From Aeromicrobium sp. A1-2 (GTDB lineage: Bacteria > Actinomycetota > Actinomycetes > Propionibacteriales > Nocardioidaceae), in contig NZ_CP027482.1 of assembly GCF_003443875.1 (NCBI RefSeq), positions 620,001-684,000 on the forward strand: 64,000 nt of DNA. The letters run 5' to 3'. This document shows, piece by piece, positions 11,801 to 14,815 of this stretch. Under the pieces are notes generated by a model. The model was not told the origin of the DNA, ran no database searches, and worked only from the letters and a program-made list of their open reading frames with translations. Every line of letters starts with the position of its first letter. Positions within the stretch are counted from its first letter, which is position 1. The position numbers were made by a program, and so were the translations under genes.

Positions 11801-12226
11801 TCAGGAGTTGAGCAGCACGATCCCGGCGAGGGCGAGTGCGATCACCTTGGCGGTCTCGAGGGCGATGTAGACGTAGTGGACACGCGACCCGGGTGGATCC
11901 TGGCCGGACAGGACCAGGTCTGATCGTCGGGTCAGGCGTGGACGGACCACACCGAGCTGGACGGCCAGCACCACGACCGGGATCACGAGCGTGATCATGG
12001 CCCAGGTGTCCGGTCGGTCGATGGCGACCGCGCCAACGATGACCACGGCAAAGACGAGCTCGATGGTGTTCAATGCGCGGAACACGAGGCGCCCGATCCC
12101 GAGCCCGATCCGGATGGTCACGTCGGGCGCACGGAACTTCAGTGGCGCCTCGATGAACGAGATGGCTGCCACCATGCCGAGCCAGACGAACACGATCGCG
12201 ACGCTGAGACCTGATGTTCCGCTCAT
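11801..12226 (-). CDS. Four-helix integral membrane protein of unknown function
   Basis: 141 residues with four hydrophobic segments: VAIVFVWLGMVAAISFI, ELVFAVVIVGAVAI, MITLVIPVVVLAVQLGVV, and AKVIALALAGIVLL. Between helices 1 and 2 is IEAPLKFRAPDVTIRIGLGI, a motif I associate with a widespread family of small bacterial membrane proteins that has no assigned role. It precedes, in the same direction and with no strong signal between, nothing on its 3' side; the regulator gene upstream ends 43 bases away. Confidence 0.7.
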   Translation of the reverse strand: MSGTSGLSVAIVFVWLGMVAAISFIEAPLKFRAPDVTIRIGLGIGRLVFRALNTIELVFAVVIVGAVAIDRPDTWAMITLVIPVVVLAVQLGVVRPRLTRRSDLVLSGQDPPGSRVHYVYIALETAKVIALALAGIVLLNS

Positions 12227-12269: not shown

Positions 12270-12940
12270 TCATCGTGGGTCCTTGGTCGGGGTCAGGTGG
12301 GCCATGCAGAGGTCCGGCTCAGTGAACGGTTCGAGACGCTCGACGGTGACGGGGGAGGACCAGGCCGCCAGAGAGCCTTGCATCAGTCCGAGGTGGATCG
12401 GACAGATGACCTCGGAATGGTCCTCGACCAGCTCGATGAAGGGGCAGCGCCGCAGACCGATGCCGACGGCGGAGGTCTCGGGAGCGAAACCCAGGTCGTC
12501 CAGCAGTCCGACCAGGCGTCCGATCGAACCTTCCACTGGGTTGTCGTCGGCGACATCCGGCTGCTCTGCCACGGGGGAGTGCATGCTCAGGGCCCATGCA
12601 TGACCGGCTTCGATGGCCTTGGCTGCGGGATCGGGCGAACCGGCGAGATTTTGGGCCAGGACCTCGGCCAGCAAACGGTACTGGCGTGGGCCGGCGGGAT
12701 CCATCCTGCGGACGAACCGAAACATCAGGGGTGGACGACCCGGAGCCCTGCGGTCGGCCTCGACCAGCATCGCCTGGCCAACCTCGACCAAGGTGTCCAA
12801 GTGGAATCGGGCCGTGTTCGGGTGCACCCCCAGCGATGCAGCGATCTGCACGATCGTCAACGCGCGGTCGGCGTCCCTCAGGACTTGCAGGACCTGGTCG
12901 CGGCGACCGCGCGGAGGAGTTTCAGTTGTGGCGTCTGGTG

Positions 12941-12944
<4 letters not shown>
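12270..12944 (-). CDS. Helix-turn-helix regulator with C-terminal Cys/His sensor-like region
   Basis: 224 residues; the ATG overlaps the ferredoxin stop (ATGA). The N-terminal winged helix-turn-helix reads LTIVQIAASLGVHPNTARFH, then LDTLVEVGQAMLVE, an ArsR/DeoR-like fold. Near the C-terminus, CPFIELVEDHSEVICPIHLG has Cys and His spaced like a metal or iron-sulfur site, followed by a further Cys in DLCMAHL. Being co-transcribed with fdxA suggests redox or nitrosative sensing. The 43-bp palindrome at 13295-13337 is its most likely operator (autoregulation). Confidence 0.8.
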
Positions 12945-13294
<350 letters not shown>

Positions 13295-13337
13295 GCCCTA
13301 GAGTTTACACAAACATCGTTTGTATAAACTCTAGGGC
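13295..13337. promoter_or_regulatory. 43-bp near-perfect palindromic operator between fdxA and the cupin gene
   Basis: The arms start GCCCTAGAGTTTA and end TAAACTCTAGGGC; inside is ACAAACA-T-CGTTTGT. 19 of 21 base pairs are symmetrical about 13316. It begins one base before the fdxA start codon and ends 12 bases before the divergent ATG at 13350, so one bound dimer or tetramer could control both genes. It is AT-rich inside a GC-rich genome. Confidence 0.85.
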
Positions 13338-13349
13338 AAGGAGAATCAG

Positions 13350-13976
13350 ATGACCGATCATGAGCTCGACGTCCGCGCGCTGCGCAAGCCTGACAAGCAC
13401 CCGACGATCTTCGCGACGTACGCGGGGCTGGGGGTGGGTGAGTCCTTCGTGCTGGTCAACAACCACGACCCCCGACACCTGCGCGATGAGTTCGAGACCG
13501 AGTACCCGGGCGGCTATGAGTGGTCCTACCTGGAGCCAGGTCCCACCGTGTGGCGGATTCAGATCACCAAGCACACCACCACCGCGTTGCCTCGGGTCCT
13601 GGCCAACACGGCCGCGTTGGCGAGCGCGGCTGAACCTGACGCCAATGGGGCGATCTGGAACCTGCCGGTACGGCAGCGGGACCTGGACGCCAACGTGATC
13701 CGCCTGCTTCCGGGCGGATCGATCGCGGAACATGCCGGCCCTGACATCGACGTGCTCATCCACGTGATCGACGGCACCGGTCACCTGATCACCGAGCGTG
13801 GCCGCCTCGAACTGTCGCTCGGGGACGTGGTGTGGTTGCCGCAGCATTCGCGCCGCCAGTTCACGGCAGGCGCCGAAGGCATCCGCTACCTGACGGTCCA
13901 CCGGCGTCGACACGGACTCGTCCTCGAGCCCGCCACGCGGGCATCGTCGTCGACTGCGGGTGGCGTTGGTGTCTGA
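13350..13976 (+). CDS. DUF2249-cupin fusion protein
   Basis: 208 residues; AAGGAG lies 8 bases before the ATG. Residues about 5-75 resemble DUF2249 (LDVRALRKPDKHPTIF, then ESFVLVNNHDP, then YEWSYLEPGPTVWRI). Residues about 105-195 form a cupin: LLPGGSIAEHAGPDIDVLI supplies the first metal motif and LGDVVWLPQHSRRQF the second. DUF2249 proteins often accompany nitric-oxide or redox functions. The palindrome shared with fdxA and its regulator suggests a common stress response. Enzymatic role unknown. Confidence 0.8.
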   Translation: MTDHELDVRALRKPDKHPTIFATYAGLGVGESFVLVNNHDPRHLRDEFETEYPGGYEWSYLEPGPTVWRIQITKHTTTALPRVLANTAALASAAEPDANGAIWNLPVRQRDLDANVIRLLPGGSIAEHAGPDIDVLIHVIDGTGHLITERGRLELSLGDVVWLPQHSRRQFTAGAEGIRYLTVHRRRHGLVLEPATRASSSTAGGVGV

Positions 13977-14203: not shown

Positions 14204-14815
14204 ATGAAGATGGTGGCCAAGAAGCACTACTCCATCCGCGAGATCTACCGGATCACGTACGACGCGGCTCGAACCAGACGATTCATGGCCGGGACGAACC
14301 TGGGTCGGGACAAGCAGTTCACCGAACGGATCATGCTGGCGGTGACCGAGGTCAACGGTTGTGAGCTGTGCTCGTACGCGCACACTCGCTTTGCTCTCGA
14401 GGCTGGTCTGAGCGATGCGGAGATCCGCTCCCTGCTGGGCGGCCTCTCGGAGGGGGTGCCGGACCACCAGATCCCCGCCATCGCCTTTGCCCAGCATTAC
14501 GCCGACACCGGCGGGCACCCGGACTCGGCCGCCTGGCAGAACATTCTCGACGTGTACGGCGAGGACGAGGCGCTCAGCGTCCTGGCCGCTGCCCGCATCA
14601 TGATGTGGGGGAATGCCGTCGGCATTCCGCTGAGCTCGTTGCGCTCACGACTCAAGGGTGCCGCAGACCCCGGGAGTGGCCTCGGTTACGAGGTTGCGAC
14701 GATCCTCGGGTCGACTGTCGTGACGCCGTTTGCGCTGCTTCAGGCGCTGGTCTCGGTGAAGCGGCGCGCCGCGGTCGCTCCGGCGGCCAGCAAGGATGTT
14801 GTCGCGGGCCGCTGA
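14204..14815 (+). CDS. Carboxymuconolactone decarboxylase / AhpD-like protein
   Basis: 203 residues. The AhpD-type redox motif is NGCELCSYAHT: Cys53, Cys56 and His60. The helical core continues with DAEIRSLLGG. About 60 C-terminal residues, including a hydrophobic stretch VATILGSTVVTPFALLQALV, go beyond the usual AhpD core and may tether it to the membrane. A thiol peroxidase-like or sulfur-handling role fits the CsoR/CstR-like operator upstream. A second ATG at 14210 is also possible. Single gene. Confidence 0.75.
   Translation: MKMVAKKHYSIREIYRITYDAARTRRFMAGTNLGRDKQFTERIMLAVTEVNGCELCSYAHTRFALEAGLSDAEIRSLLGGLSEGVPDHQIPAIAFAQHYADTGGHPDSAAWQNILDVYGEDEALSVLAAARIMMWGNAVGIPLSSLRSRLKGAADPGSGLGYEVATILGSTVVTPFALLQALVSVKRRAAVAPAASKDVVAGR

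Follow-up and report, generated by a model that had tools for sequence, protein, structure and literature searches.

A palindromic candidate operator between ferredoxin and DUF2249-cupin genes, linked to one branch of ArnR-like regulators in actinobacteria

NsrR and DosR/OsdR control NO or hypoxia responses in actinobacteria, and the targets of SufR, a [4Fe-4S] repressor, are Fe-S assembly genes. Closest to the locus described here is ArnR of Corynebacterium glutamicum, reported as a [4Fe-4S] NO-sensing repressor of narKGHJI and hmp (PMC12343034). ArnR is described as possessing C179, C193 and C223 with a nearby conserved His, a TRAPPC3-like sensor domain, and a dimer that leaves the DNA once both clusters are nitrosylated; the same source calls Rv2621c of Mycobacterium tuberculosis ArnR-like (PMC12343034). 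Haloarchaea are reported to induce DUF2249 proteins during denitrification, and in Thermus such proteins are linked to nitrate respiration (PMC11218638, PMC6282519). Among the open-licence papers searched, none was recognized on the operator or regulon described below.

The window analysed here is a stretch of 64,000 nucleotides from Aeromicrobium sp. A1-2 (contig NZ_CP027482.1, positions 620,001 to 684,000), within which an fdxA operon and a DUF2249-cupin gene diverge from a long palindrome.

Genes, palindrome and predicted promoters of the window

The genes of the locus are as follows:

11801..12226, minus strand: small membrane protein (141 aa), probably encoded third in the operon (DUF4149 match sub-threshold, 18.1 against 24.6 bits)
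12270..12944, minus strand: regulator with an N-terminal winged helix and a C-terminal TRAPP/Bet3-like domain (C167, C181, H184, C213), from profiles and predicted structure
12941..13294, minus strand: fdxA, an actinobacterial FdxA-type ferredoxin (NF045480, 166.9 bits, cut-off 125)
13350..13976, plus strand: DUF2249 plus cupin-like protein, the proposed divergent target (PF10006, 90.5 bits)

The regulator start overlaps the fdxA stop (ATGA). The cupin part of the divergent protein scores 23.3 bits against Cupin_2, under the Pfam cut-off of 27.2, and downstream of this gene a carboxymuconolactone decarboxylase/AhpD-like protein is encoded at 14204-14815. The locus is patchy; among 48 other genomes of the genus searched, a strong DUF2249-cupin relative was found in one only (G046).

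Between the two diverging genes lie the following elements:

13294..13338, no strand: near-perfect palindrome, 21-3-21, 20/21 (sequence, symmetry search)
13302..13307, minus strand: predicted -10 TAAACT for transcription of fdxA and the regulator; the fdxA ATG follows 7 nt on, and a leaderless start is predicted at 13294
13303..13329, no strand: conserved operator core GTTTACACAA-N7-TTGTATAAAC, with one copy in its own genome and the same type of element in relatives
13325..13330, plus strand: predicted mirror-image -10 TAAACT of the DUF2249-cupin gene, proposed by symmetry, with a start predicted at 13338
13338..13343, plus strand: Shine-Dalgarno-like AAGGAG of the DUF2249-cupin gene (sequence)

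A first-pass annotation had placed a 43-bp palindrome at 13295-13337, beginning one base before the fdxA ATG and ending just before the DUF2249-cupin gene. That element exists exactly as claimed, with 19 of 21 matches around a 1-nt centre, and its best register is slightly larger, comprising the 45 bp of 13294-13338 with 21-bp arms, a 3-nt centre (ATC) and 20 of 21 arm pairs. Its position is also as described: it abuts the fdxA ATG, the A of which is 13294 on the minus strand, so that the 45-bp register includes this base, and 12 bp past its far end lies the DUF2249-cupin ATG at 13350, with the AAGGAG in between. The 45-bp palindrome is far beyond chance. Such elements are expected 7.5e-5 times per 64 kb (independent bases, loops 0-8), the best among 60 first-order Markov sequences reached 18/21, and the G+C content is 40% inside the palindrome against 67% across the window.

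The 27-bp core takes the form GTTTNNACAA-N6/7-TTGTRTAAAC. At the N7 spacing no second copy with up to three mismatches occurs in the 3.45-Mb genome, and a search at N6 or N7 with no mismatches returned the known site only. A mobile or repeated element was rejected on this single genome copy. Extended 17-nt arms match at 16 of 17 positions in the window and at no more than 13 of 17 in the other 80 sites compared; across these sites, the near-perfect 45-bp symmetry is peculiar to the Aeromicrobium sp. A1-2 genome, and the conserved part is the core of 26-27 bp. The long palindrome is thus a local sharpening of this core, with the same predicted -10, spacer and start at both window promoters.

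The minus-strand TAAACT is followed after seven bases by the fdxA ATG; position -1 is C, and the predicted transcript would begin with A (+1) and T (+2). A rule reported for mycobacterial leaderless transcripts, which begin at the start codon itself, puts TANNNT centred 7-12 bp upstream (PMC3898074). The spacing of the fdxA-side TAAACT and the bases at -1, +1 and +2 fit this rule and the common starts given there (PMC3898074). Scanning 13200-13450 revealed neither a sigma-70 consensus promoter nor a terminator, and the lack of a consensus promoter counts against the reading proposed below. The region upstream of each promoter would be the arm of the other, and polymerase therefore probably loads one way at a time.

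The operator core in relatives

The comparison across taxa uses loci picked by regulator sequence, the 80 best among 567 matches in named genomes. These loci derive mostly from Mycobacterium and its allies, and also from Nocardia, Micromonospora, Actinoplanes, Parafrankia and others. A core-like site (GTTTNNACAA-N5/6/7-TTGTRTAAAC) occurs on the regulator strand in 75 of the 80 loci (77 sites), and in 76 when both strands are read; in 72 it lies no more than 250 nt upstream of the first gene matched. The same rule detected no site in 27 loci from the order that hold other related regulators, nor in 30 ArnR-like loci; both of these sets include about 1.5 kb to either side of the regulator, the 80 loci up to 6 kb. 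It detected none in shuffled sequence (five shuffles per locus). Four of the 80 loci lack a site by the rule, among them L085, which has a version one base off; these four count against our reading.

By this comparison, the presence of the operator follows one regulator clade, and the product of the regulator gene in the fdxA operon very probably binds at the palindrome. The proposal that one switch serves ferredoxin and cupin together, and is read by this regulator, gains support from the core accompanying the regulator in 76 of 80 loci. The same annotation had staked its reading on the palindrome being kept in relatives with the same gene pair, and the core is indeed present in relatives, although g15 loci of similar layout have a different palindrome (below). 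Among same-order relatives, a 13-3-13 element precedes the DUF2249-cupin gene in G046, G109 and G277, and more weakly in G069; in G046 the regulator is directly divergent from DUF2249-cupin, without fdxA. In the three closest loci of the order the rule finds two and misses G069, a poor match that counts against our reading. So does the spacing of the half-sites (N6 in 59, N7 in 16 and N5 in 2 of the 77, mainly mycobacterial, sites; N7 in the window), since variable spacing is unusual for the site of a rigid dimer. The half-site letter frequencies across the compared sites are partly preset by the search pattern.

The element is not universal for the fdxA/DUF2249 pair. Four loci of one genus, g15 (L063:6213, L072:6111, L073:4474, L074:5910), which we guess to be Kribbella, combine a similar layout with another 27-bp palindrome, which reads ATTACTACAAATATCACATGTAATAAT or nearly so and has the ACA-N9-TGT centre seen in the window. 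This palindrome is perhaps the matching operator of the g15 regulators' own branch.

Of the 77 sites, 76 lie no more than 260 bp from a ferredoxin, regulator or DUF2249-cupin gene. The downstream gene is FdxA at 46, the regulator at 25 and a Fer4_15-type ferredoxin at 2; the remaining 4 have no tested gene downstream, 3 of them with DUF2249-cupin opposite and one (L141) with no tested gene on either side. On the opposite side are DUF2249-cupin (26), a truncated globin (5), a cupin (1) or no tested gene (45). A homologue of the small membrane protein follows the regulator in 71 of the 80 loci, and in some relatives genes judged by eye to be methyltransferase-like follow DUF2249-cupin.

Thirteen of the 80 loci contain a globin gene, though it does not always adjoin the operator. 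At five loci a group III-like truncated haemoglobin replaces DUF2249-cupin across the operator from the regulator (L087:5541-5933, L090:5533-5937, L098:5533-5937, L107:5380-5775, L161:5511-5915). Searches of the PDB with a 10-sequence globin profile gave a group III truncated haemoglobin, 2ig3, as best match (E 4e-6); single-sequence searches gave nothing significant, and NCBIfam/Pfam scans of the 10 members returned only two weak Bac_globin matches, the better at 0.0033. In one genome the operator heads an operon of hemerythrin, Fer4_15-like ferredoxin, regulator and membrane protein (L176:967-1526; L219:6614-7173), and the L176 operator is symmetric enough for the pattern to match on both strands. 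Further copies stand before DUF2249-cupin genes away from the fdxA-regulator operon (L096:3618, L144:10713, L155:8438), and a COX1 gene (L170:1571-3024; cytochrome c oxidase subunit I, 532 bits) points away from an fdxA-regulator operon that bears the operator.

The predicted promoter geometry is also retained. An ATG follows TAAAC(T) after 7 nt at 48 of the 77 sites, after 8 nt at 11 and after 6 nt at 4, with none there at 14, and at 57 sites an ATG or GTG at 6-8 nt opens a reading frame that continues without a stop into the ferredoxin or regulator gene. A Shine-Dalgarno-like sequence precedes the ATG position at 1 of 81 sites, and on the opposite side of the operator one lies within 30 nt at 51 of 77. 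The proposed leaderless fdxA mRNA thus finds support in a -10-to-ATG spacing kept in relatives, its 5' end being a prediction. One locus counts against this reading: in G109 the ATG 7 nt past the -10 opens an unrelated frame of 28 codons, not the regulator.

Genome-wide scans independent of gene annotation point the same way. The exact pattern GTTTNNACAA-N6/7-TTGTRTAAAC matched at 7 sites in the phylum-wide set (6 of 396 genomes, own genome included) and at 16 in the family holding most matches (15 of 251 genomes); 6 sites are common to both scans, giving 17 distinct sites, and a reversed control pattern matched in neither. All 17 flank at least one gene of a set comprising ferredoxin, regulator, DUF2249-cupin, hemerythrin, truncated haemoglobin and small membrane protein. 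The hemerythrin operon of L176 and the globin joined the set through these scans. The exact pattern is strict and absent from most genomes scanned, and these genomes are not independent of the earlier sites, because the pattern was drawn from them and some sites are letter-identical. With up to two mismatches, 6 of 293 genomes of the order match, 4 at DUF2249-cupin and 2 (G097, G172) at loci without any gene of the set; the reversed control also matches 4 of the 293, so this looser scan alone proves nothing.

The regulator and its resemblance to ArnR

The winged helix of the regulator matches the HTH_IclR and HTH_20 profiles. Its C-terminal region had been described as a Cys/His-rich tail, which reduces to three Cys and one His, C-x13-C-x2-H...C (C167, C181, H184, C213), invariant in 23 of 23 aligned rows. 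The x13 gap between the first two Cys is found in 28 of 28 cases, and the third Cys at x31 in 24 of 28. The structural model has a mean pLDDT of 88.4. A Foldseek search of this model against solved structures gave nothing at E 0.001 or better; a second look with VIA-align, restricted to Foldseek's candidates, aligned it to TRAPP subunits with Z 10.4-13.5 and rmsd 2.7-3.4, mostly over residues 78-224. Among these fold matches is 6aq3, a TRAPP subunit with covalently bound palmitic acid. A regulator profile against PDB sequences gave 8 matches up to E 0.01, all within positions 11-100, the winged-helix end.

These features are those reported for ArnR: three conserved Cys with a 13-residue gap and a nearby conserved His, and a winged helix joined to a TRAPP-like sensor domain, the latter as a predicted fold. 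The suggestion of an undescribed switch needs correcting as to the regulator, which is of a known kind: its sensor signature and predicted fold have been reported for ArnR (PMC12343034). By analogy, the regulator probably holds a [4Fe-4S] cluster via C167, C181 and C213, perhaps with H184.

The window regulator is ArnR-like rather than ArnR, because the ArnR-like proteins form a separate branch. A tree was built with 22 other operator-linked rows, 4 from the order and 18 from further loci; the window, these 22 rows and G094 form one clade of 24 rows (support 95/98), and 7 ArnR-like rows branch off separately (100/100). G094, a long-branched regulator inside the operator clade without an operator nearby, counts against our reading. 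The window regulator falls outside the clade of the ArnR-like proteins of the Corynebacterium-like genus, g283, which we take to be Corynebacterium, and shares about 28-31% identity with the six of them listed. A genome of this genus in which narKGHJI adjoins the regulator shows the exact Cys spacings of 13 and 29 (L207, L211); narG lies on 5 of 7 longer stretches from this genus, and the strict C-x13-C-x2-H pattern occurs in only 19 of the 30 ArnR-like loci. In 330 bp at narK of a single genome (G1039), the best match to GTTTNNACAA-N5-8-TTGTNNAAAC was 12/16; the operator was therefore not found at the narK promoter of this one C. glutamicum-like genome, its identity presumed. With an identity of about 28-31%, and the operator missing from the one narK promoter inspected, the analogy between the sensors reaches across a clade border, which counts against our reading.

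A proposed NO-released repressor and its standing among known systems

We favor, with a probability of roughly three in four, a reading in which the regulator is an autoregulating, NO-released repressor of both operons and the palindrome is its two-faced promoter-operator. A regulator dimer would bind the two-fold symmetric core ACAA-N7-TTGT, with half-sites about one helical turn apart and A+T-rich arms on either side. The bound dimer would cover both outward -10s, silencing its own operon (fdxA, regulator, membrane protein) and DUF2249-cupin together. NO, for example from nitrate respiration, would nitrosylate the [4Fe-4S] cluster and release the regulator from its DNA, whereupon polymerase could fire either way, giving a leaderless fdxA mRNA in one direction and a short leader with a Shine-Dalgarno sequence for DUF2249-cupin in the other. 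Ferredoxin, membrane protein and DUF2249-cupin would then be made, until NO is gone and fresh repressor restores silence.

The genome is compatible with such a signal. It encodes a respiratory nitrate reductase, the NarG match scoring 1642.8 bits against a cut-off of 1084.15. No NirK match exceeds its cut-off, and NF009805 finds no full-length Hmp: its nine matches all lie within the reductase half and none exceeds the cut-off. NO arising as a by-product of nitrate respiration would thus need another handler. Further clues come from M. tuberculosis, where Rv2621c is likely the counterpart of the window regulator, judging by gene order and the ArnR-like label in PMC12343034. On day 1 of exposure to nitrite, Rv2621c is reported to be raised (PMC6593118), and Rv2620c, Rv2621c and Rv2622 decreased together under an aldehyde (PMC10470581), as a shared operator predicts. 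The value of 2.59 for Rv2621c in a csoR-mutant table (PMC4801387) counts against our reading, as does its change under an aldehyde. The redox or NO theme of the original proposal is supported by the ArnR-type motif and by the links to globin and hemerythrin; the signal itself we infer.

The most serious competitor, which we consider unlikely overall, keeps the same operator and regulator and changes the signal, which could be Fe-S status as with SufR, oxygen, peroxide, a metal ion such as zinc or copper, or some small molecule held in the TRAPP-like domain. Three Cys and a His would suit zinc too, the fold match 6aq3 carries palmitic acid, fdxA itself encodes an Fe-S protein, and the csoR-mutant and aldehyde changes of Rv2621c are of this kind; the linked truncated globin, hemerythrin and DUF2249 nevertheless point to NO or oxygen chemistry, and a known NO sensor has a similar Cys/His signature. 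Altogether less probable is that the site activates, with bound regulator recruiting polymerase. The lack of a recognizable -35/-10 consensus pair would suit activation, but the core overlaps both predicted -10s, the position of a repressor, and ArnR is described as a repressor (PMC12343034).

We give slightly less credence still to the palindrome being the site of another regulator, of DosR/OsdR, CRP/FNR or NsrR type, beside which the adjoining regulator gene would be coincidental. DosR can have genes for globins and stress proteins among its targets: dependence on DosRS is reported for a group III globin of M. avium (PMC11876180), and regulation by DosR for M. tuberculosis fdxA (PMC5557973). 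Yet operator presence tracks a single regulator clade and the motifs differ: the DosR/OsdR box, a AGGGCCGATCGGCCCT-like 16-mer (PMC5069765), is absent from 13294-13338 when compared by eye, and the HcpR/CRP-like site is TGTGA-N6-TCACA (PMC1274295). Least credible of all is a hairpin in RNA or DNA, whether terminator, attenuator, cruciform or recombination site. A single strand of the palindrome does fold at -19 kcal/mol (z -10.25), but the element sits between diverging genes, upstream of both predicted starts, the terminator scan was empty, the genome holds one copy, and relatives keep the core only, with far less symmetry.

The preferred reading, an NO-released repressor, opens onto a broader one that we hold tentatively and, as a whole, incline slightly against: that actinobacteria, mycobacteria included, possess an undescribed NO-sensing regulon run by a second branch of ArnR-like repressors, in which an operator made of two mirror promoters serves interchangeable NO modules and DUF2249-cupin is a new NO protein. 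The modules would be truncated haemoglobin in some genomes, hemerythrin with ferredoxin in another, and DUF2249-cupin with ferredoxin in the window. If true, FdxA would feed DUF2249-cupin, which would be new among the proteins that detoxify or sense NO. The comparison connects DUF2249, a domain of unknown function, with a regulator that is probably an Fe-S protein and, at the same operator, with the truncated globins that replace DUF2249-cupin. It also supplies a specific operator and target list for a regulator branch containing many mycobacterial proteins, among them probably Rv2621c by gene order. The layout is compact: two operons, one predicted to be leaderless, apparently share a single symmetric element that serves them as both operator and promoter.

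Set against known systems, the locus stands nearest to ArnR, with which the window regulator shares a winged helix, three Cys with x13 and a His, and a TRAPP-like fold (predicted for the window). The two differ in the third Cys, which comes after 29 residues in ArnR and usually after 31 in the group of the window regulator, in clade, and in layout, which in the window is autoregulatory and beside fdxA. They differ also in operator, the window core being absent from one narK promoter and 30 ArnR-like loci. Rv2620c-Rv2622 resembles the window in combining a membrane protein and a regulator, with a methylase gene beside them (PMC10470581); unlike the window fdxA, which adjoins the regulator, the DosR-regulated fdxA of M. 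tuberculosis is Rv2007c (PMC5557973). SufR has a winged helix of similar type and a [4Fe-4S] cluster (PMC12343034), and NsrR and DosR/OsdR belong to other protein families than the window regulator. The symmetric bidirectional promoters reported in Escherichia coli (PMC12825309) likewise comprise pseudo-symmetric DNA able to load polymerase either way, but there a single -10 is common to both directions, whereas the window is predicted to carry two outward -10s with the operator between them.
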